From: a virus | Length of the DNA: 64,000 nucleotides | Virus record (IMG/VR): IMGVR_UViG_3300023198_000559 | Span: 1 to 64,000 of that record | Reading direction: 5' to 3' (one strand) | In this document: piece by piece, positions 1,209 to 32,722 of the stretch | Layout: each line of letters starts with the position of its first letter | Numbering within the stretch: position 1 is the stretch's first letter | Translations under genes and position numbers: made by a program | Notes under the pieces: generated by a model | The model's database searches: none | The model's input: the letters and a program-made list of their open reading frames with translations, nothing else | What the model was told of the DNA's origin: nothing

Positions 1209-1210
1209 AG

Positions 1211-1283
1211 CAGTCCATACGAGAGTCGAACTCGCTCCATACTCATAGACAGTGAGATATCTTAACCATTTGACCTATGGACT
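1211..1283 (-). tRNA. tRNA-Asp (GUC)
   Basis: Seven-pair acceptor stem (AGTCCAT with ATGGACT), T arm GCGAG-TTCGACT-CTCGT and anticodon loop CTGTCTA giving GUC. The D stem is weak (three pairs) and the top pair of the anticodon stem is T-T. No CCA is encoded. Confidence 0.85.
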
Positions 1284-1287
1284 GTGT

Positions 1288-1322
1288 GAAAATAAAGGGA
1301 GACTCATCTAGAATAATCTCCC
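1288..1322 (-). terminator. Rho-independent terminator candidate
   Basis: On the minus strand GGGAGA and TCTCCC enclose a 14-base loop and are followed by TTTATTTTC. It lies between tRNA-Gly and tRNA-Asp. The region 1323-1447 between it and tRNA-Gly holds no convincing gene. Confidence 0.5.
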
Positions 1323-1447
1323 TGGGCTGTTTTTTAATGCTGAGCAACTTCAGGCTCTTTCATCTAGAATTCCCTTTGTGTAACCACCGTTACAACGGGT
1401 TGTGGAGTCGGGCCACACGATACAGTGGGGATCACCCCGACATATGG

Positions 1448-1522
1448 AGCGCAATGTGAGATTCGAACTCACGACCCTCTACTTGGAAGGAAGACGCTCT
1501 GACCGGACTGAGCTAATTACGC
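1448..1522 (-). tRNA. tRNA-Gly (UCC)
   Basis: Acceptor GCGTAAT with ATTGCGC (one T-G pair), D stem GCTC/GAGC, anticodon loop CTTCCAA giving UCC, and T arm GTGAG-TTCGAAT-CTCAC. The anticodon stem has one T-T mismatch. Confidence 0.9.
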
Positions 1523-1530
1523 TTGTATTG

Positions 1531-1605
1531 TACTCTCTGCTGGATTTGAACCAGCGACTTCCCACTTGTAAGGAGGGCACTCTTCCCGGGCTGAGTTAAG
1601 AGAGC
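1531..1605 (-). tRNA. tRNA-Val (UAC)
   Basis: Acceptor GCTCTCT with AGAGAGT, D stem ACTC/GAGT, anticodon loop CTTACAA giving UAC, and T arm GCTGG-TTCAAAT-CCAGC. The anticodon stem has one mismatch. Confidence 0.88.
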
Positions 1606-1639
1606 AGGAGCACTTTATTAAGGTCAAAGTGCGAAAACC

Positions 1640-1716
1640 TGGTGGCGGGGACGGGAATTGAACCCGCAATTAAGAGTTTATGAGACTCTCCTGTTACCAA
1701 TTACATGCACCCCGCG
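1640..1716 (-). tRNA. tRNA-Met (CAU), initiator-like acceptor end
   Basis: Acceptor CGCGGGG with CCCCGCC leaves C1 opposite C72, a mismatch position that is a hallmark of bacterial initiator tRNA. The anticodon loop is CTCATAA (CAU) and the T arm GCGGG-TTCAATT-CCCGT. A CCA end is encoded, unlike in its neighbours. The anticodon stem is AGAGT/ACTCT and lacks the three G-C pairs of a true initiator, so identity (initiator, elongator or Ile2) is open. Confidence 0.85.
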
Positions 1717-1732
1717 GTGTAAAGTTAATAAT

Positions 1733-2377
1733 TTATTTTAAATTACGATACATTTCTTCTACATTAAGGTGTAGATCATCTAATGAACCTGTATTCTCGA
1801 TTATATAATCGAATTTTTCGTAGTCATCTAAAGATATTTCAGAAGGATGCTGGTCTATTACTACAGTAGGACGATTGACACGAATGACAACGCCTCCTCT
1901 AGCTCTAATAGCATCTGCTTCATTAGGAAACCTTACATCTGTGATTATCCAGTTAGGATAAGCATCAGCTATAGTAGTTCCACCTTTGACATTTGGTACA
2001 CGTCGTAGTTTTAGTTCATATTCTGAAAATAAAGCGTTTACCCAGCACTGAGGATGTAACTGTCTCCCCATCTCTGTACCTATTTTCTGTAGCATTTCTC
2101 TACCGGTTAAAGTGTGTCCATCAAATTCCCAGAGATTACTTAAAGGATAAGCTTTAAACTCTTGATTTTCGAATTCTTCTACATCTATACCCGTAAGTAA
2201 GGAAGCTACTTGTTTAACCTTATATGCAAATTTTTTAATTGTATAGTAAGGTAATGTTATTCCATCTTGTCTGAGACCTTCTAGAACTTTTATGGGAGTG
2301 GCTAATTTTTGAATAGTTTCTCCAACTTCGTCTTTACCAGATCCCATTTTACCAGATATTCCTATTAGGTTTACCAT
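1733..2377 (-). CDS. Deoxynucleoside monophosphate kinase-like P-loop protein
   Basis: A 214-residue protein resembling phage deoxynucleotide monophosphate kinases (T4 gp1 type), which phosphorylate dNMPs to dNDPs. The N-terminus carries a P-loop (GISGKMGSGKD, residues 6-16). Typical later features are REMLQKIGTEMGR and the segment WIITDVRFPNEADAIRARGG, where DVRFPNE is characteristic of this family. The gene overlaps the downstream end of the HAD-type gene by one base (2377), suggesting joint translation and a shared role in supplying dNTPs along with the ribonucleotide reductase. Confidence 0.85.
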   Translation of the reverse strand: MVNLIGISGKMGSGKDEVGETIQKLATPIKVLEGLRQDGITLPYYTIKKFAYKVKQVASLLTGIDVEEFENQEFKAYPLSNLWEFDGHTLTGREMLQKIGTEMGRQLHPQCWVNALFSEYELKLRRVPNVKGGTTIADAYPNWIITDVRFPNEADAIRARGGVVIRVNRPTVVIDQHPSEISLDDYEKFDYIIENTGSLDDLHLNVEEMYRNLK

Positions 2378-2769
2378 TAATCATTGTTTTCAATCAGTTC
2401 GTTAAATGCGTCAAGCAAATCCATACTCTGTGTAAGACCTGCATTGTCATCTAATAATAAATTAAAGAAAGGTTTTCTAACTGTAGGGTCTTCATAGAGT
2501 GTTGATTTGTTTACTGCATCAAATTCTATTCCATATACCTCTTCAGCGATAGTAAGTTTATACTGGATACTCCAGTCATTTGCTACTGTCCATAAACATA
2601 AGTCTACTTTAGTCCTTACTTTATGTATTAATTCTCTTACACGCTCACATCTCTTAACGATGCGTGGGTCAGTGTTTAAGGGATAGATCGTATTATCAAA
2701 ATCTAAACCTACAACAATACCTCCGTGCGTTTTGTAAGTATTAACTAGTTTTTCAAGTTCACAATTCAT
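2377..2769 (-). CDS. HAD-superfamily hydrolase-like protein
   Basis: A 130-residue protein with HAD motif I at residues 23-27 (DFDNT) and a C-terminal motif LLLDDNAG that supplies the metal-binding aspartates. LCLWTVAND matches the motif II region. Family members are phosphatases or nucleotidases; some phage versions are 5'-nucleotidases or polynucleotide phosphatases. The coupling to the dNMP kinase gene suggests a nucleotide substrate, which is an inference. Confidence 0.75.
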   Translation of the reverse strand: MNCELEKLVNTYKTHGGIVVGLDFDNTIYPLNTDPRIVKRCERVRELIHKVRTKVDLCLWTVANDWSIQYKLTIAEEVYGIEFDAVNKSTLYEDPTVRKPFFNLLLDDNAGLTQSMDLLDAFNELIENND

Positions 2770-2790
2770 ATGCTTAGTTTAAAATATTAG

Positions 2791-2861
2791 TGGAATCAGA
2801 TAGAGTCGACCTATCGTCCCCGGGTCTTCAATCCGGTGCTAAACCCCTCAGCTACAATTCC
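2791..2861 (-). tRNA. tRNA-Phe (GAA)
   Basis: Acceptor GGAATTG with TGATTCC, anticodon loop TTGAAGA giving GAA, and T arm GATAG-GTCGACT-CTATC. The T loop starts G instead of T and the inner anticodon pair is mismatched, so the fold is slightly irregular. Its first ten bases also encode the end of the next gene. Confidence 0.75.
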
Positions 2862-2998
2862 ATTTGGTACCTTCTTATCCTAGGCGTAAGACTGGGGTGC
2901 TCCCAGGCGCCAGTGATGTTAGAAAAGCCAGACCCTCTATAGCTTCGTCTTCCTCTTACGTAGAAAACTTTACCAGATGCTGTCGATAGTGGTACCAT
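2852..2998 (-). CDS. Small basic protein ending inside tRNA-Phe
   Basis: A 48-residue reading frame beginning MVPLSTASGKVFYVRGRRS. It is Arg-rich, with no recognised family. Its last codons and TAG stop (2852-2854) lie in the first ten bases of tRNA-Phe: the stop is the T8-A9-G10 of the tRNA. The same arrangement occurs at 4389-4535. It fills otherwise empty sequence between two tRNAs, which supports reality, but it is short. Confidence 0.5.
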   Translation of the reverse strand: MVPLSTASGKVFYVRGRRSYRGSGFSNITGAWEHPSLTPRIRRYQMEL

Positions 2999-3002
2999 AC
3001 TG

Positions 3003-3076
3003 TAGTCTATGCAGGATTTGAACCTACGACATACTCCGTATCAGGGAGGCGCTCTACCAAGCTGAGCTAATAGACT
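3003..3076 (-). tRNA. tRNA-Ile (GAU)
   Basis: Acceptor AGTCTAT with ATAGACT, D stem GCTC/GAGC, anticodon loop CTGATAC giving GAU, T arm GTAGG-TTCAAAT-CCTGC. Confidence 0.88.
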
Positions 3077-3146
3077 ATAAAGCCCCGTTGTGTTCTTCCT
3101 TACTACACGAGGCGACATAATAACGTACGTCTGACGATTGTTTTTG

Positions 3147-3219
3147 TAGGACCGGAAGGACTTGCACCTTCTCCCTTCCGCTTAAAAGGCGGAAGCTCCC
3201 CTTGTTGAGCTACGATCCC
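3147..3219 (-). tRNA. tRNA-Lys (UUU)
   Basis: D stem GCTC/GAGC, anticodon stem TCCGC/GCGGA with loop CTTTTAA giving UUU, and T stem GAAGG/CCTTC with unusual loop TGCAAGT. The first base follows directly on the stop codon of the gene at 3220, with no spacer. Confidence 0.82.
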
Positions 3220-3477
3220 TTAAATCTTATCGGGGTCGTGTTTACTTTCTTGATTTTTCATGTTTTCTTCTATTAATTTTAAAGTTTCAATACTATTCAT
3301 TAGAGTTGTTGCATCTTTGATGTCCCAATAGTGGTCACAGTTAGCAGCCATACCATCTAAACTATCTGATGTAAAGGTGCTATATGATTGCCTCCAGGGG
3401 TTGGGAACTGCTCTGTATCTAAAGCAATTCATTCTTAACGTGCAGGTTTTATCTGCACACATTGATATATCAGGCAT
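3220..3477 (-). CDS. Small cysteine-cluster protein
   Basis: An 85-residue protein starting MPDISMCADKTCTLRMNCFRY: Cys at 7, 12 and 18, with a fourth further on at MAANCDHYW, which fits a zinc-binding or disulphide-poor knuckle. The second half is helical and charged. Its stop abuts the tRNA-Lys gene. Function unknown. Confidence 0.65.
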   Translation of the reverse strand: MPDISMCADKTCTLRMNCFRYRAVPNPWRQSYSTFTSDSLDGMAANCDHYWDIKDATTLMNSIETLKLIEENMKNQESKHDPDKI

Positions 3478-3480
3478 ATT

Positions 3481-3747
3481 TTAATGGCTAAAATGTTGTA
3501 CAATAAATTGAATTTTTCCATATACAGAGTGGGAATTATGATCCACTTCATACCAAGCTCTTATAAATTTAGCCCATAATGAACCTGGGTCATCAGCATA
3601 AATAAAATCACCACTCATGTTGGGTCGAGGGATCCGATACTTACCTAAACGTAGTTCATCGGGTTCCTCTTCCATATTTCTAGATTGGCTAACAAAGAAT
3701 TCCCAGGCTTCTGGATGTTTTTCTTTATTACTCTCTTTCTTATTCAT
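3481..3747 (-). CDS. Hypothetical protein, 88 residues
   Basis: A mostly hydrophilic protein with several Trp residues (HPEAWEFF, SLWAKFIRAWYEVD). It sits between tRNA-Met and the cysteine-cluster gene with 3 bases of spacing, so co-transcription is likely. No family recognised. Confidence 0.6.
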   Translation of the reverse strand: MNKKESNKEKHPEAWEFFVSQSRNMEEEPDELRLGKYRIPRPNMSGDFIYADDPGSLWAKFIRAWYEVDHNSHSVYGKIQFIVQHFSH

Positions 3748-3762
3748 TTTTTTGTTGTTTTG

Positions 3763-3836
3763 TGGGCCCTGCAGGGGATGATCCTGCGACCTTCTGGTTA
3801 TGAGCCAGCTGCTCCGACCAATTGAGCTAAAGGCCC
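3763..3836 (-). tRNA. tRNA-Met (CAU), elongator or Ile2 type
   Basis: Perfect acceptor GGGCCTT/AGGGCCC with G-U pairs, D stem GCTC/GAGC, anticodon stem GCTGG/CCAGA, loop CTCATAA giving CAU. The T loop reads ATCATCC, which lacks the usual TTC start. A lysidine-modified Ile2 tRNA cannot be excluded from sequence. Confidence 0.78.
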
Positions 3837-3837
3837 A

Positions 3838-4071
3838 TTAAATTTTATAAATGTCGTGAGAGTATCTATTTACTCCATTATTAGTAGTATAAGTTTTACC
3901 TGAGTAAGTATATGTATGAGTAGGTGGTTCACCTTTCTTTAAACATCTTACCATTTTAGGAGTAAAACCTGCTACTGTACCTCTCATTAAAGAGGAATTA
4001 GCTGAAGGATTATAAATTATCTCGTCGCCAATCTTTAAGTCGTTACCTTCAAAATCTACATGTATTCCCAT
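3838..4071 (-). CDS. Hypothetical protein, 77 residues
   Basis: Start chosen at the ATG overlapping the upstream stop as TAATG (4069-4073); it begins MGIHVDFEGNDLKIGDEIIY. Beta-rich, with Gly and Tyr, possibly an SH3-like barrel (GDEIIY then RGTVAGF is typical of such folds). It ends one base before tRNA-Met. Function unknown. Confidence 0.6.
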   Translation of the reverse strand: MGIHVDFEGNDLKIGDEIIYNPSANSSLMRGTVAGFTPKMVRCLKKGEPPTHTYTYSGKTYTTNNGVNRYSHDIYKI

Positions 4072-4310
4072 TATTCTACTGTTAAAACGTAAACTGAGTA
4101 TGTCGTTGTGACTACAGTTGATTTTTCGTTTAGAACTTGTAGTTTTGTTACTACAGATGTTGACCATAAACCTTTACCTTCTTCAACAACTGGAAAACGT
4201 TGCCTTAAAACAGGAAAGTCGCTAAATTCAATCTTGTGATCTTCACCTACAGTGTTATAATCACTAATTTCATCTATTACTTCTACTTTTGTTATTATTC
4301 CTTTTATCAT
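4071..4310 (-). CDS. Hypothetical protein, 79 residues
   Basis: Begins MIKGIITKVEVIDEISDYNT and ends in a beta-rich segment (YSVYVLTVE). It is translationally coupled to the next gene by a TAATG overlap. No family recognised. Confidence 0.6.
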   Translation of the reverse strand: MIKGIITKVEVIDEISDYNTVGEDHKIEFSDFPVLRQRFPVVEEGKGLWSTSVVTKLQVLNEKSTVVTTTYSVYVLTVE

Positions 4311-4325
4311 TTGTTTGTTGTTTAG

Positions 4326-4398
4326 AACATCCTATAGGATTCGAACCTATAACCATAGACTTAGAAGATCCACGCTCTTCCAATTGAGCTAAGGATGC
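4326..4398 (-). tRNA. tRNA-Arg (UCU)
   Basis: Acceptor GCATCCT with AGGATGT, D stem GCTC/GAGC, anticodon loop CTTCTAA giving UCU, T arm ATAGG-TTCGAAT-CCTAT. Its 5' end overlaps the preceding small gene by ten bases. Confidence 0.9.
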
Positions 4399-4535
4399 TT
4401 GTCATTTATTTGTCTTATAATTTCTCTTTTTTCTGCAGCTCTTTCTTTTCCCCAAAAGAACTTTCTACCTACTTTACGCATGTGTTTAGCCCATTCATTA
4501 GGCTTTGTTAAATTACCTTTCTTTACTGTTCCCAT
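4389..4535 (-). CDS. Small basic protein ending inside tRNA-Arg
   Basis: A 48-residue protein starting MGTVKKGNLTKPNEWAKHMR and continuing RKFFWGKERAAEKREI. Short basic proteins with a NEWAKH...FW.KERxAxK pattern are common in phages, though no function is known to me. It starts three bases after tRNA-Thr and its TAG stop (4389-4391) is bases 8-10 of tRNA-Arg. Confidence 0.7.
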   Translation of the reverse strand: MGTVKKGNLTKPNEWAKHMRKVGRKFFWGKERAAEKREIIRQINDKHP

Positions 4536-4537
4536 AG

Positions 4538-4609
4538 AGTCAAACCTAGGAATCGAACCCAGTTATCAGGTTTACAAAACCCGCGCATCGCCAGCAATGC
4601 TTGTAAGAC
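4538..4609 (-). tRNA. tRNA-Thr (UGU), imperfect acceptor
   Basis: D stem GCAT/ATGC, anticodon stem CGGGT/ACCTG with loop TTTGTAA giving UGU, and T arm CTGGG-TTCGATT-CCTAG. The acceptor GTCTTAC/GTTTGAC has two central T-T mismatches, so function may be reduced. Confidence 0.75.
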
Positions 4610-4614
4610 TTGTG

Positions 4615-4687
4615 CACACCCTGAAAGATTCGAACTCTCTACTACTGGGTTTGGAAGCCAGTATCCTACCCAGAGGATCTAAGATGC
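4615..4687 (-). tRNA. tRNA-Trp (CCA)
   Basis: Acceptor GCATCTT with AGGGTGT (three G-U pairs), D stem ATCC/GGAT, anticodon loop TTCCAAA giving CCA, T arm GAGAG-TTCGAAT-CTTTC. The innermost anticodon pair is C-C. Confidence 0.8.
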
Positions 4688-4695
4688 GTGTGTTG

Positions 4696-4768
4696 CTGAC
4701 CTTTATGGATTCGAACCAGAATCTACCCGATTAACAGTCGGGAGCTTTACCAATTAAGCTAAAAGTCA
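4696..4768 (-). tRNA. tRNA-Asn (GUU)
   Basis: Acceptor TGACTTT with AAGGTCA, D stem GCTT/AAGC, anticodon stem CCCGA/TCGGG with loop CTGTTAA giving GUU. The T stem TCTGG/CCATA has one mismatch. Confidence 0.85.
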
Positions 4769-4803
4769 GTGTTACTTCAATACGTCAATGTACTTATTAT
4801 TAG

Positions 4804-4870
4804 TTGGGACAACAGGGCTCGAACCTATGACCTCCCTCTTCAGGCGCTCTACCCACTGAGCTACATCCCG
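4804..4870 (-). pseudogene. Degenerate tRNA lacking a proper anticodon arm
   Basis: A 67-base element with intact D arm (GCTC-AGTGGGTA-GAGC) and T arm (ATAGG-TTCGAGC-CCTGT), but only 11 bases (CCTGAAGAGGG) where a 17-base anticodon arm should be. Pairing gives at best a 3-4 pair stem with no T33. C1 is opposite A72. Either a decayed tRNA or a tRNA mimic with another role. Confidence 0.6.
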
Positions 4871-4908
4871 AAGTACTAGTTTTATTACTCGAGTTTTTAC
4901 TAGTACTT
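4871..4908. repeat. Perfect 10-bp inverted repeat
   Basis: AAGTACTAGT and ACTAGTACTT are exact reverse complements separated by 18 bases. The hairpin begins at the base next to the 5' end of the degenerate tRNA, so in the transcript it would sit just upstream. A processing signal is an inference. Confidence 0.75.
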
Positions 4909-4931
4909 ACTATTACCTTGCGATAATAATG

Positions 4932-5006
4932 TGGAGAGTAAGGGAATTGAACCCTTGGACTCCTGGTTGCAAACCAGGTGCATTAGCCAACGCATGCTTA
5001 AACCCC
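4932..5006 (-). tRNA. tRNA-Ala (UGC)
   Basis: D stem GCAT/ATGC, perfect anticodon stem CCTGG/CCAGG with loop TTTGCAA giving UGC, T arm AAGGG-TTCAATT-CCCTT. The acceptor GGGGTTT/ACTCTCC has two mismatches. Confidence 0.82.
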
Positions 5007-5012
5007 ATTATT

Positions 5013-5225
5013 TTATTCTTGTTGTGACTGCTCGTATGCTAGTCTATCTTGTTCATACTGTTCTTCTCTTTCTTGTTGTCTTTCTTCTTCTCTTCTTGCT
5101 TCTGCGTATCTTTCTTCTCTTTCGTATCTTTCCGGGTCCTCATCATAATACTCCTGCTCTTGTCTGATTGAGCGAATCATATCTACAGGCATTATACAGC
5201 CTGTTGGGAATTCTGGTCTTGCCAT
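5013..5225 (-). CDS. Small Glu/Arg/Gln-rich protein
   Basis: A 70-residue protein. The first ~20 residues (MARPEFPTGCIMPVDMIRSI) look ordered; the remainder is a highly charged, Tyr-containing low-complexity helix with alternating E, R, Q and Y. Likely a single long helix or a disordered region. A terminator precedes it. Function unknown. Confidence 0.65.
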   Translation of the reverse strand: MARPEFPTGCIMPVDMIRSIRQEQEYYDEDPERYEREERYAEARREEERQQEREEQYEQDRLAYEQSQQE

Positions 5226-5238
5226 AGTTTTTAGTCAT

Positions 5239-5271
5239 TAAAAAACCCCTACTGAATTAACAGCAGGGGTT
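5239..5271 (-). terminator. Rho-independent terminator
   Basis: Minus-strand AACCCCTGCTG and CAGTAGGGGTT pair (one mismatch) around TTAATT and run into six T. It would end transcripts from tRNA-Glu before the gene at 5225. Bases 5272-5375 contain only a 20-codon frame that is not called. Confidence 0.8.
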
Positions 5272-5375
5272 ATACCAGGTTGGGTATAGTACTGCTGTTA
5301 AGTGGCCATATCTACGGCCCCCTTAAACGTTCTTGCAATATTTATACACCAATTTTTCATAATCTTATTATTTTG

Positions 5376-5450
5376 TACTCCCGACGAGACTTGAACTCGC
5401 AATCTCCAGGTTGAAAGCCTGACGGCCTACTCCAATTAGCCTACGGGAGC
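5376..5450 (-). tRNA. tRNA-Glu (UUC)
   Basis: Acceptor GCTCCCG with CGGGAGT, D stem GGCT/GGCC, anticodon stem TCAGG/CCTGG with loop CTTTCAA giving UUC, T arm GCGAG-TTCAAGT-CTCGT. Confidence 0.9.
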
Positions 5451-27003: not shown

Positions 27004-27123
27004 AAAGAATCAGATAGAGGCTATTGGGGCCTACTTCCGGAGCCAATATTCACTGTTTTATCTCTCAGTTCCCAATCTTATGGCATTCCATCAACAGAGG
27101 CTTTTGCGCGTGTCTGATTCTTT
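27004..27123 (-). ncRNA. Structured RNA domain directly after tmRNA
   Basis: Minus-strand AAAGAATCAGA at 27113-27123 and TCTGATTCTTT at 27004-27014 are exact reverse complements (11 bp) and enclose a ~98-base multibranch region with ATTGGG/CCCAAT and ATGG/CCAT pairings. It begins two bases after the tmRNA 3' end and runs into TTTTAC. It could be a terminator-like 3' element of the tmRNA precursor or a separate small RNA. Confidence 0.55.
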
Positions 27124-27125
27124 AG

Positions 27126-27514
27126 TGGAGATGCAGGGAGTCGAACCCTGGTCCACAATGTATTAAATACACATGATATACAAGTTTGTAGGGCCAGCTC
27201 AACTGCTGACGGTCCACCACTTAGTCTTTTTATGAACTAAGAAACACTCTCTAGTTGTTATCGTATATAAATATACAGTGAGATGCAGAGTATTCTCGTA
27301 CACGCTATTCTGTTTCTAGGTTAACGTAGAACCCAAGCACTCATGAAACCTAATTACTATTAAGCTGCAATACGCATCTCATACTGAGCTACAGGTGCAA
27401 TAGAAATAACTTTCGTTTCTCCATTTATTAAAGTGATACGTTTTTAATGTGTCTCATATCATCACATACTTGCATGTAGTACTGAATATCATCATGTCAA
27501 ATCCAGTCATCCCC
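27126..27514 (-). ncRNA. ssrA: Transfer-messenger RNA (tmRNA)
   Basis: A 389-base one-piece tmRNA. The 5' end GGGGATGACTGGATTTGAC and 3' end with T arm CAGGG-TTCGACT-CCCTG followed by CATCTCC-A form the tRNA-like domain (acceptor GGGGATG/CATCTCC, one G-U). Helix P2 is supported by 5' ACATGAT(GAT)AT with 3' ATATCATGT. The tag frame starts GGA GAA, as in host Bacteroidota tmRNAs, and ends GCT TAA followed by TAG TAA. CCA is not encoded. tmRNA with SmpB rescues stalled ribosomes and tags the product; no smpB is visible here, so host SmpB is needed. Confidence 0.9.
27360..27422 (-). other. tmRNA tag reading frame (20 residues)
   Basis: Decodes to GETKVISIAPVAQYEMRIAA followed by TAA TAG TAA. The GE start agrees with Bacteroidota tags, which are about 9-10 residues ending ALAA; this one is twice as long and ends RIAA. 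Confidence 0.8.
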
Positions 27515-28419: not shown

Positions 28420-28791
28420 TTAATATCCTGTATACTGATTAGTATACTGTTTAATTAATTTCTTAAGCCATCTAACTCGAGGCTTAATAAGATATGGTTT
28501 GTAAAGAAATACACCAGTTGTAGTGATGTTCATCTCAATGTCACCATCAAAACTCTTGGGTGAATAGGTTATAAACTTATTATTAAGTCTATTTTGAATA
28601 AGAGTAAATAACATACTAGCTTGCATATCATTAATCTTACCTTCCCTTTTCATAGCATACACAGCAGTACATAGACCATCATATTTAGTTGGTCGTATAC
28701 TAGGATGTGTAAACTCTTGTAATAGTAATTCTAGTAATCTTCTCATGGTCATATTAGCTTGATTTAGTTTGTACATTGATTTAAATGACAT
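28420..28791 (-). CDS. Hypothetical protein, 123 residues
   Basis: Starts MSFKSMYKLNQANMTMRRLL (internal ATGs could also serve). Helical N-terminal two thirds (MRRLLELLLQEF, KINDMQASMLFTLIQNRLN) with a basic C-terminus. Lies at the 3' side of the large gene-free region. No family recognised. Confidence 0.6.
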   Translation of the reverse strand: MSFKSMYKLNQANMTMRRLLELLLQEFTHPSIRPTKYDGLCTAVYAMKREGKINDMQASMLFTLIQNRLNNKFITYSPKSFDGDIEMNITTTGVFLYKPYLIKPRVRWLKKLIKQYTNQYTGY

Positions 28792-28797
28792 CCCCAA

Positions 28798-30264
28798 GTA
28801 TTTTTACTCGGCTGTCCAAGTGCACTTGCGCTAAGACTGTGTTCTACTTGAGGATATTGTGCTGTATGGAGAGTCGAACTCCTAATATAGTATTCTAACT
28901 ACATTATGCCCAAATTACAGCGGTGATTAAGTTACAAGCTGAGAATGTGACTTGTATGTTATGATTATCTACCTTTTCAAGTATAATTCACACTTAGGTT
29001 TAACTAAGTACATAACATAGAGAGTTGATTACAACCATTTACTACTACTATTCATATAAACTTCAATTTCTGCAACCATCCTTGGAAGGACTCGCAGTGT
29101 TCCCACACTACTAGGTTAAACATACTTTATTCATTTCATCAAAGCTCCTTGCGGGTGCTAAGACAACTGTATCTTACAACAGTATAACTCTATTGTTGAA
29201 TAATAGTCTACAGGCGTTGGGCTTTTCGAGTTTAAGATGAGCTTATTCAGCTTCTTTCTTTTAGCGAAATATAGTGAGATACAAGACGTCGACTGTAGTC
29301 TACATGCATGCTACTCTTGCGAGCAGTTTAGCTTGTTACGCCTTGTTGTAAGTTATCAGCTTACGGTGGATTAAGATGCTACTACAAGAGCACACCCTAA
29401 TTACTGACCACAACACTAATAGATTGATATTCTATTTTGCATCGTACCCTACACAGTTCCCTATTGCTATTTCTAGCTCAACTCCAGTCACCACTGGAAT
29501 ATACTCTCAGGTATTAACCCATTGAATATGTTATATGCATGCTTACATGGATTGGTATCAGTCCTGACACCAACGCTCGTCACCTTATTTCGAAGAATGA
29601 CTTACTTTATACTCATCACTGAGTTTATCCTAAGGCTATAAGCAACCTTTTCTTAAATGCTTGGGAGCATAGTGTACACTACCTCCCTCGACCCTCCAGC
29701 GTAACCTGTACAAGCTATCTAGATAGGATTTCGGTCTTAAATATCTTAAGTTAATATATCTTACAGACAATTTGAGTTCTTGCCTATTATACTTTCAGTT
29801 ACAGGTGAAACCCTGCATCTCAATACTTTCCATAGCTACATACTATCCAACATGTATCGCCACCTATAGCAGGTAGACGTAGGTTTCGAACCTATACGTA
29901 GAAGATATATTAACTCTCAATTACTCTTAGTGAGTAATGAGTTTAATGCTTAGGTAAGTATCTGGTGCGCTAGATGTCTTAGTAGGGCGTATTCCCATAC
30001 CTTATACTTACCATTGTTACTCTTTAGTTGTACATAAGTCGTAACATCTTACGTTAGCACATTGCTTTTGTGTCCGGGTCTAGTGCTATCACAGGACTGC
30101 AGTTTTTAATCTCACGGCCAGAAATAGAGGCACGTTACCTCTACCAACAGACAATGGTGCTCCACAACCTAATCAACACTCTTCAGTGTCTTTTGAATGC
30201 TTCTATGCTACCAATGAATATTCCTACTGCTCGTACAGAGCGTTCCGTAGGTCCAACCTAGTAT
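28798..30264 (-). ncRNA. Candidate large structured noncoding RNA region (~1.47 kb)
   Basis: No convincing gene on either strand. The minus strand is packed with local hairpins: 29311-29326 (CTGCTC-GCAA-GAGTAG), 29466-29477 (GCTA-GAAA-TAGC), 29483-29498 (TCCAGT-GGTG-ACTGGA), 29554-29571 (GGTGTCA-GGAC-TGATACC), 30040-30053, 30124-30144, 29920-29938 and 29348-29364. Two are GNRA tetraloops in minus-strand sense only. It is flanked by minus-strand genes, so it would be transcribed in that direction. The scale and density recall large ornate phage RNAs (GOLLD, ROOL), but I cannot match a family. Confidence 0.55.
28861..28921 (-). other. tRNA-like element without a D arm (61 bases)
   Basis: GCTGTAA and ATACAGC pair as an acceptor (one mismatch), GGAG-TTCGACT-CTCC is a T arm with the canonical loop, and AATGTAGT/ACTATATT gives an 8-bp middle stem with a 6-base loop. 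No D arm fits in the remaining bases. Could be a decayed tRNA or a tRNA mimic at the 3' end of the large RNA region. Confidence 0.45.
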
Positions 30265-30471
30265 CTATACAAAATGAGGGACTGAACCATGTTCTTCCAG
30301 GTAGTCACTTATCATCTTGTCGGCTCTCTCTTGTAGTATGATGTCTACATCCTTTACTACTTTGAGTATCACACGATCCATAACCTTATCAGGACACTTA
30401 CCACTATTTATGGTAGCTGTCCTAATATGGTCAAGTTCGGAATTAGTAAATTGTTCTAAGAATCTCTTCAC
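30265..30471 (-). CDS. Hypothetical protein, 68 residues
   Basis: Starts MKRFLEQFTNSELDHIRTAT. Helical throughout. It overlaps the lipoprotein gene by 4 bases and ends in TAG; reading through the TAG gives non-protein-like sequence, so TAG is a true stop. No family recognised. Confidence 0.6.
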   Translation of the reverse strand: MKRFLEQFTNSELDHIRTATINSGKCPDKVMDRVILKVVKDVDIILQERADKMISDYLEEHGSVPHFV

Positions 30472-30740
30472 CTTCTTGTTCTTCTAAAGGTGCTTATTCT
30501 TGTAATTAATACAGAGTCTTGTACAAGTTTCATATTACCAGCTAAGGTAATAAGTGTTGTATCTGACTCATAGTACTGTAATATGCCTAAACGTTGTTCA
30601 TAGTCTATTACAGTATGAAATGCTACTTTAAGTAGCACTACGGGTTCTTTGGCTTTATATTTAGCCACTCTCTCACTCTTGGATGTACAAGCAGATGCTA
30701 ATGCAAGAGTAAGGATTAATATTACTAAAGTATTTCTCAT
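30468..30740 (-). CDS. Lipoprotein, 90 residues
   Basis: Signal peptide MRNTLVILILTLALASAC ends in a clear lipobox (LASAC), with Cys18 as the lipidated residue. The mature part is charged and beta-rich. Expected in the host envelope. Function unknown; receptor masking or exclusion is possible. Confidence 0.7.
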   Translation of the reverse strand: MRNTLVILILTLALASACTSKSERVAKYKAKEPVVLLKVAFHTVIDYEQRLGILQYYESDTTLITLAGNMKLVQDSVLITRISTFRRTRR

Positions 30741-30743
30741 AGT

Positions 30744-30869
30744 TTACTTTATAAACACTATCCAACATGAAAGTAATATAGATGTAACAGTAATACTAAT
30801 GAAGACTGTTTGTACTAACCACAATAATGCAGGTGTATTAATAATATGTTCAAGGATTCTATCTATCAT
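30744..30869 (-). CDS. 41-residue membrane protein
   Basis: Starts MIDRILEHIINTPALLWLVQ, then a ~20-residue hydrophobic span (TVFISITVTSILLSCWIVF). ATGA overlap with the upstream gene. Could accompany the lipoprotein. Confidence 0.55.
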   Translation of the reverse strand: MIDRILEHIINTPALLWLVQTVFISITVTSILLSCWIVFIK

Positions 30870-31066: not shown

Positions 31067-31623
31067 CTTTACGAAGTACTATTTGATTAAATAACTACTC
31101 AGACTTTCTGAATAGTAAATGTCTTTTGAGGCTATAGTATACTTACTACTTATAAGTAGTATAATAGAGAAAGTAGAGAAAGTATATAGTTTTACTGTGA
31201 GTCCTTCTCTCTCTCTAAGAGTTTATAGTCAAATAGTAAGTGTAAAGCTATGATGCCTCGCTATCACCTGAGAGGATATACCTGCTGCAACCATTAGCTT
31301 TACTTCTTCTTACTATTAATACCTATAGTCGTTACTCATACGCCATAGGTTATATATCTTGAGTTCTCTTCTGTCGTACTGTATTGGCATAGGACTTAGA
31401 AAAGAATTGAAATTCGCTATATACGAACATGGACAGTTCTAACAAGTGGCACACGAAGTCCACTTGCGTCTGAGACTGTAGAGGTTAGTCCACAATCATG
31501 AGCCCAGTTCGTGCATCGAACCATCGCCCATCGATTAATACCTTTCTCATAGTGATGAGGTTAGGGTGAAGAGGTGCACACTACTTCATCTGGTGAGTGT
31601 GCTTAACCAGTTGGTACATCAGG
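31067..31623 (-). ncRNA. Second gene-free structured region (~0.56 kb)
   Basis: No gene on either strand. Hairpins include 31094-31116 (10-bp stem), an 18-bp perfect palindrome at 31144-31161 (TACTACTTATAAGTAGTA), the closed domain at 31233-31316, CAAGTGG/CCACTTG near 31444, GTTCG-ATGCA-CGAAC near 31505 and GCACACT/AGTGTGC near 31575-31600. Read as a leader or as noncoding RNA on the minus strand. Confidence 0.45.
31233..31316 (-). other. 84-base closed RNA domain
   Basis: Outer stem ATAGTAAG/CTTACTAT (8 bp) and inner stem GTAAAGCTA/TAGCTTTAC (9 bp) enclose a ~44-base core that contains CCTC/GAGG. The coaxial two-stem closure resembles a riboswitch or small RNA domain, but no known class is recognised. 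Strand is uncertain; minus fits the flanking genes. Confidence 0.45.
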
Positions 31624-31869: not shown

Positions 31870-31999
31870 TCTTAGGATTGCAGTTGGATTAACCCGACGG
31901 GGGTACCCAAGACTGCGAAATTAAGAGGGGGAGATTCGCTATATCACACCTACGCTTATACTCAGACAAACAATTTTCTAAAAATATTTTAAAAATTTT

Positions 32000-32046
32000 A
32001 CACGGTAGACTAATAAGGGTACAACACGGTAGACTAATTATGGTAC
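32000..32046. repeat. Tandem 24-bp direct repeat
   Basis: ACACGGTAGACTAATAAGG with TAC at the end, at 32000-32022, recurs at 32024-32046 with two changes (AATTATGG). Two adjacent copies could be protein-binding iterons. Confidence 0.75.
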
Positions 32047-32254
32047 GTAGTAAGGAAGTCAGGTTAAACCTGATCTACCTACTAAGAAACGCCAGGGGGT
32101 ACTGGCTTTAGGGTGTAGGAGATATCATGCATAAGGTATGAATCCGGGACTGTTTTGTATGATGTAGACGACATTCATGTCGCACATATTGTAATAATTT
32201 GAGCACAATACCGGTACAAGGTACTAATCTCTAAAAAGTACTAATAGAAATAAA

Positions 32255-32334
32255 TGTCACAAATCCAGGTGTTAATAGAAGAAATTCCCTTTAACTGTCA
32301 CAAATCTACTAGTTAGTAGAAGATTTTGTCACAA
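32255..32334. promoter_or_regulatory. Three TGTCACAA boxes
   Basis: TGTCACAAATC at 32255-32265 and 32296-32306, and TGTCACAA at 32327-32334. The middle copy includes CAAATCTA, the reverse of a TAnnTTTG box, so a regulator bound here could control leftward transcription. A related inverted repeat is at 42192-42212. Confidence 0.5.
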
Positions 32335-32349
32335 CTTGGACAGTAACTA

Positions 32350-32440
32350 GGACACAGTGTCCAAGTACTTTATACATATATGTATATAAAAAATGTACTA
32401 AAGTATACATTTATGTATAATAAGTACGTACGTGTATAAA
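32350..32440. repeat. AT-rich palindrome cluster
   Basis: GGACAC-A-GTGTCC at 32350-32362, TATACATATATGTATA at 32371-32386, then further imperfect copies of TATACAT/ATGTATA and ACGTACGT up to about 32440. The stretch is AT-rich and could melt or cruciform, as expected near an origin. Confidence 0.6.
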
Positions 32441-32649
32441 GTCAACCTATATAGATACTAATTTCTAAAAGTCAACCTATGTGCTGACAAAAGCCCGGGA
32501 GTTGTCAGGGTAAGGCCTGCCTACTAAGTTTCAAGCAAATTGCGAGCGGTCCCATTCAATTACAAAGGACTCTAACCTCAACCGGGCATGCAAAGTTACT
32601 ACACCTTAAAGGATAAATATACGATTAAGTGAAAATAATTTAACAATAG

Positions 32650-32680
32650 TTTGGTAAGTTAATATAATGTATTAACTTTG
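32650..32680 (+). promoter_or_regulatory. Bacteroidota-type promoter for the right arm
   Basis: TTTG at 32650-32653, a 19-base spacer and TAACTTTG at 32673-32680, an exact match to TTTG-N19-TAnnTTTG. Transcription would start shortly after, about 35 bases before the first plus-strand gene. Confidence 0.75.
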
Positions 32681-32722
32681 TAGTACAATATATTATACTT
32701 CAACTAATAACAACAACAAAAG

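Follow-up and report, generated by a model that had tools for sequence, protein, structure and literature searches.

Genomic Setting and Coding Content

The window analyzed here, 64 kb out of the 80-kb IMG/VR virus record IMGVR_UViG_3300023198_000559, has matches to the PHROG families of the terminase, portal and major head protein, and by terminase its closest isolate is Cellulophaga phage phi14:2 (Crassvirales, Steigviridae), at 32% identity. On the basis of these matches, we assign the source virus to the crAss-like phages. The window includes a tRNA cluster (1210-5450) and an intact tmRNA (27123-27514), both on the minus strand and both called by ARAGORN and Rfam; one minus-strand tRNA, at 4804-4870, is called by Rfam (41.7 bits) and not reported by ARAGORN. 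The region of interest, 28798-30264, belongs to the leftward portion of the genome, with small genes on both sides and the tmRNA approximately 1.3 kb downstream. An earlier note on this DNA had described a setting with many tRNAs and a tmRNA; since the tRNA cluster is 23 kb away, the tmRNA alone counts as a neighbour. The same note described a genome in which genes otherwise overlap, and this is mostly so, except for two further gene-free gaps nearby (31067-31623 and 31870-32722), which are close to a divergent junction and have no GNRA excess.

No ORF of note is present in 28798-30264 on either strand under genetic codes 11, 15 and 4, and a periodic Markov model detects no coding signal in the six frames. 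The best-frame coding scores of the region (approximately -0.06 to -0.11) resemble those of the tmRNA, while the genes of this phage average +0.10, and a lone 63-aa ORF (30070-30261, plus strand) sits where the model shows no coding signal. Codes 15 and 4, together with coding potential, rule out a recoded or overlooked gene, and the ORF scan and Markov scores confirm the earlier reading that neither strand carries a gene.

The region was also described as dense in hairpins, with at least eight, and indeed 17 Watson-Crick hairpins of at least 5 bp are present vs. a shuffle mean of 8.4. Approximately 5% of other genome segments match this count, and hairpin density alone is unconvincing. The folding energy is average for the phage: a z of -4.9 for 1000 nt seems striking when seen by itself, but the MFE z-scores of -3.15 and -2.75 for 1000-nt pieces of the region are ordinary next to sense-coding controls from the same phage (+0.7 to -8.4, n = 20). 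Because coding RNA of this phage is equally structured, folding z-scores were dropped as evidence. The adjoining small-ORF stretch (30266-30856, minus strand) has a folding z of -7.5 vs. shuffles, stronger than that of the region itself.

GNRA Hairpins on the Minus Strand

The minus strand of the region carries nine GNRA-capped hairpins under a generic definition (stems of 4 bp or more, with GU pairs permitted). Shuffled sequences average 1.15, with a maximum of 5 and none of 300 reaching nine, and the plus strand of the region has none. Among 474 other 1467-nt windows from this and other phages, the highest count is 6, short of nine, and eight other tetraloop classes in the region are at shuffle background. 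With stricter 5-bp stems, four GNRA hairpins remain vs. 0.46 expected. This count was made after the earlier note had flagged two such loops, in minus-strand sense only; the restriction to one strand stands, and the number is raised to nine.

These hairpins, all identified from sequence on the minus strand, include CUGCUC-GCAA-GAGUAG (29311-29326; pairing probability 1.00), GCUA-GAAA-UAGC (29466-29477; 0.73), UACUU-GAAA-AGGUA (28970-28983; 0.69), ACUCA-GUGA-UGAGU (29611-29624; 0.60), GUAGUGU-GGGA-ACACUGC (29094-29111) and AUAG-GGAA-CUGU (29453-29464), as well as three more with 4-bp stems (29170-29181, 29989-30000, and 30217-30228). Seven of the nine fall within a segment of the minus strand that we refer to as the body (28925-29741), where 0.68 are expected (0/500 shuffles). 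The six noncoding frames and the nine GNRA hairpins define a candidate long noncoding RNA on the minus strand, with outer limits of 28790-30264. Strand-wise counting of GNRA hairpins can thus expose RNA that free-energy scores miss where phage coding RNA folds strongly.

A Related Phage With the Same Locus

Flanking proteins, terminase and DNA patterns served as queries in scans that identified a single close relative carrying this locus, contig IMGVR_UViG_3300023198_000904 (L002, L007). Its terminase is 89% identical, its genes share approximately 80% nucleotide identity with those of the window phage, its tmRNA is in the same place and the same two genes flank the gap. In both phages the gap is noncoding and at least 590 nt long; it measures 590 nt in L002 vs. 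1467 nt in the window phage, where it is 2.5 times longer. In the nearby gene-free gap 31870-32722, a block of 32 nt (32170-32201) shares 97% identity with L002:4945-4976 and is perhaps a control site.

IMG/VR and GTDB genomes were scanned by exact, gapped and protein-based searches, and these returned only contig 000904, with other pattern matches failing the model. Searches by blastn against phages and plasmids gave no match above chance, and two neighbouring proteins had no tblastn match among phages. A homology to phi14:2 via AAGGCGTTAACAAGCTAA was rejected as not significant (18/100 shuffles), and model R2 has no match in 28798-30264.

Two features of the isolates were recorded along the way. 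An unannotated element of approximately 100 nt (CCCUACUCUUAUUAG ... CUAAUAAGAAAGAGGG, then GCUAAUAA) is present in phi14:2 (L018:3240-3375), phi4:1 (L019:6475-6590) and phi17:2 (L020:5953-6068), with approximately 75% identity between one crAss-like phage and two Lightbulbvirus phages; it lies just 3' of genes with matching 3' ends and has no Rfam match. Additionally, ARAGORN calls a tmRNA in phi14:2 (NC_021806; L018:4031-4500), for which cmscan gives 46.0 vs. the Rfam cut-off of 47 bits, and the RefSeq record lists no tmRNA at 4031-4500.

A Conserved 3' Module With a tRNA-Like Domain

The strongest evidence for a structured RNA comes from the 3' edge of the candidate, a 135-nt module (28790-28924, minus strand) common to the window phage and L002. 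The next gene begins 38-44 nt downstream, with its ATG at 28752 or 28746. The 5' portion of the module is a putative tRNA-like domain of 61 nt (28861-28921, minus strand), identified through compensatory changes relative to L002, an ARAGORN mitochondrial drawing and a descriptor match. It has a 6-bp acceptor-type stem (28921-28916/28866-28861), a D-region with GGGCA, a stem-loop (28906-28883) and a T-arm (28882-28868) with the loop UUCGACU. The domain is not a canonical tRNA: it has no D-stem, no encoded CCA and no 7-nt anticodon loop, and the loop of the stem-loop, whose length is 6 nt here and 8 nt in L002, is therefore not an anticodon loop. Neither the bacterial mode of ARAGORN nor the Rfam tRNA model calls a tRNA here, and the mitochondrial mode of ARAGORN draws a D-armless fold on the window copy, not on that of L002. 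A tRNA-like descriptor, made afterwards, matches at this position in the window phage and in L002 alike (1/300 and 0/300 shuffles), and phi14:2 is without such a domain. Between the window phage and L002, the domain shows four compensatory and two one-sided changes and no disruptive ones.

The 3' portion is a hairpin domain of 66 nt (28790-28855, minus strand) with approximately 90% identity to L002 and one compensatory pair, and fourfold sites of well-aligned neighbouring genes are approximately 59% identical. Its long stem (28855-28846/28799-28790) encloses a helix (28837-28831/28820-28814) and is mutually exclusive with an alternative hairpin (28811-28805/28800-28794). Both of the exclusive helices are kept in the two phages, which leaves room for a switch.

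Across the module, 33 of 33 standard pairs are kept in L002 despite 12 substitutions in paired columns, with five pairs changed on both sides, a comparison that rests on these two genomes. When the same number of changes was placed randomly, all pairs were kept in 0 of 200000 simulated trials, and the covariation signal was lost when partner columns were shifted by 1-3. For model R1, the alignment of one stem was first adjusted by cutting three bases of linker out of the window's copy; the resulting model realigns the unmodified copy with the same pairs recovered. The five compensatory pairs with none disrupted, set against 59% identity at fourfold sites, indicate that the fold of the module is under selection. 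The same evidence bears on the suggestion that a former tRNA gene, with decaying sequence next to it, left the tRNA-like domain behind as a remnant that no longer functions. The missing D-stem, anticodon loop and CCA are what such a remnant might look like, but compensation of this kind largely refutes the idea, to which we attach very little probability.

A separate observation concerns an 11-bp long-range complement to the T-arm, in which 29688-29698 pairs with 28867-28877 (minus strand) at a mean probability of 0.82. This pairing would unfold the T-arm and has no counterpart in L002; it may be due to chance or represent a switch.

A Variable Body and a Predicted 5' Domain

The body lies between the tRNA-like domain and a conserved anchor of 35 nt (UUUAAGACCGAAAUCCU...CUUGUACA; 29707-29741, minus strand), which was found by local alignment with L002:2132-2164 (score 32). 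This score was reached in 0/100 shuffles in one test, and in the other the shuffles had a 95th percentile of 28 and a maximum of 36, corresponding to a significance of roughly p = 0.01. The anchor is not repeated, which rules out a repeated promoter motif. The distance from anchor to module is 782 nt in the window and approximately 350 nt in L002. Beyond the anchor, nothing in the body is alignable with L002 (global similarity z = 1.46), RNAalifold on a MAFFT alignment of the two gives z = 0.06, a weak test at approximately 50% identity, and the corresponding strand of the L002 gap contains no GNRA hairpins. From these comparisons, the body appears to be either a structured RNA that changes fast by whole domains or a feature specific to the window phage.

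Upstream, a partition-function fold predicts a 5' domain of 533 nt (29706-30238, minus strand), most of which is missing in L002. Its 10-bp closing helix (30238-30229/29715-29706) has a probability of 0.90, by partition-function prediction only. The predicted domain encloses a subdomain of 167 nt (29749-29915, minus strand) closed by a perfect 14-bp helix (29915-29902/29762-29749), and an inverted repeat as long as this occurs in 2/300 shuffles.

The earlier note had proposed a large structured RNA, and named a lack of covariation among relatives, or a region of variable filler, as what would speak against it. The proposal is partly supported, on the minus strand, by the GNRA excess, the 14-bp long-range helix and the 3' module. 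Covariation is present in the last 135 nt and absent elsewhere, and the region is variable in part, with a body that is very different in length and unalignable in the sole relative.

In the main rival explanation, function resides in the last 135 nt alone, which would act in cis on the next gene as its leader or as an intercistronic processing element, with the mutually exclusive helices and the tRNA-like domain switching or processing its mRNA. The kilobase upstream would be no more than variable filler. Conservation limited to the module and the 35-nt anchor, the retention of two mutually exclusive helices and the presence in both phages of one and the same gene directly downstream of the module are all consistent with such a role, and the filler reading of the body is favoured by its lack of conservation. 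However, filler would not be expected to show a GNRA excess that is both strong and strand-specific, and the gap is long and noncoding in both phages. We consider this explanation possible, though somewhat unlikely.

A Putative Processed Scaffold RNA

The noncoding sequence, the strand-specific GNRA excess and the conserved 3' module with its compensatory changes are established. Our preferred explanation, to which we assign a probability of about 0.5, is that the minus strand of the region encodes a long noncoding RNA that acts as an RNase P-processed scaffold. Its GNRA-rich body, approximately 0.8-1.35 kb in length, would evolve fast; the conserved tRNA-like domain would come next, with the hairpin domain at the end. 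The RNA would probably be transcribed together with the leftward operon that carries the tmRNA and the DNA polymerase, and we infer that it is then released by processing of the leftward transcript. RNase P recognises stacked acceptor and T stems, as in the maturation of tRNA and tmRNA, so that a cut just before G28921 would be the simplest use of such a stack in a polycistronic transcript. Host RNase P may therefore cleave on the 5' side of the tRNA-like domain, as it does in the precursors of tRNA and tmRNA, and the cut would separate the structured RNA from the mRNAs on either side, with the tRNA-like domain potentially serving as a handle for processing and stability. The body, in turn, may be a scaffold in which docked GNRA loops hold the structure together; it would work in the manner of GOLLD and ROOL but belong to neither family.

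In favour of the processed scaffold, both phages hold a noncoding gap between the same flanking genes with a tmRNA near. Against it are the unalignable body, the 2.5-fold difference in length, the L002 gap without GNRA hairpins, the ordinary folding energy, a module found in two genomes only and the pairing that would unfold the T-arm.

More tentatively, the candidate may be the first of a separate class of long noncoding RNAs in phages. Such an RNA would fold by itself into a GNRA-docked scaffold of approximately 1-1.4 kb, the D-armless tRNA mimic at its conserved end serving for maturation by host RNase P and/or for holding the RNA at the translation machinery, while related phages would differ by the replacement of large pieces of the body. 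GOLLD and ROOL belong to a small set of large structured phage RNAs with functions that are not known. The present candidate adds one from a crAss-like phage that is matched by no Rfam family, and its tRNA-like handle provides a concrete, testable hypothesis on how such RNAs are released from phage transcripts.

Comparison With Known RNAs

The likeness to GOLLD or ROOL proposed in the earlier note, which had suggested checking Rfam models, was not borne out. A scan of the region with all Rfam families at E up to 10 gave no convincing match, and neither the GOLLD model (E up to 10) nor the HEARO, ROOL and OLE models matched anywhere in the record; the ROOL and OLE negatives are weaker, because neither model rang in any control genome. 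A literature search with subscription journals largely outside its coverage returned no description of such an element.

GOLLD and ROOL form RNA cages, and GOLLD combines a conserved 3' part with a variable 5' part (PMC12286853). The candidate resembles GOLLD in this respect and as a long phage noncoding RNA, and it resembles ROOL as a long phage RNA with an elaborate predicted fold and a function that is not known. A highly diverged member of either family would account for the size, the phage setting and the conserved 3' end, yet the candidate is matched by neither model and lies outside the tRNA island, 23 kb from the cluster, and its 3' part consists of a tRNA-like domain and a hairpin, which differs from GOLLD. 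We regard such a relationship as improbable.

In gut phages of Bacteroidota, theta ribozymes directly follow tRNAs on the 3' side (PMC10879173), which is the position that the structured 3' hairpin domain occupies relative to a tRNA-type fold, and an HDV-like fold was therefore looked for here. A descriptor of the HDV-like double pseudoknot, the fold with a catalytic C in its J4/2 junction, finds nothing in the region, at the module or in L002, and the record contains nothing that the Rfam HDV model matches. With the motif absent by both approaches, an HDV-like or theta ribozyme was rejected, and we give this reading next to no weight.

Bacterial Y RNAs of the YrlA type are noncoding RNAs that include a tRNA mimic. 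The tRNA-like domain of the candidate differs in having its own acceptor-type stem. The phage record, which may be incomplete, shows no TROVE domain of the partner Ro protein, and this speaks tentatively against a Y RNA.

With tmRNA, the candidate shares an acceptor-type stem and a D-region without a D-stem, and its T-arm loop, UUCGACU, is identical to the loop in the phage's own tmRNA. It differs from tmRNA in having no tag reading frame or pseudoknot ring, and Rfam and ARAGORN searches for tmRNA return only the separate one at 27123-27514. We place it as a candidate of a known kind, a large structured phage RNA, outside any known family.
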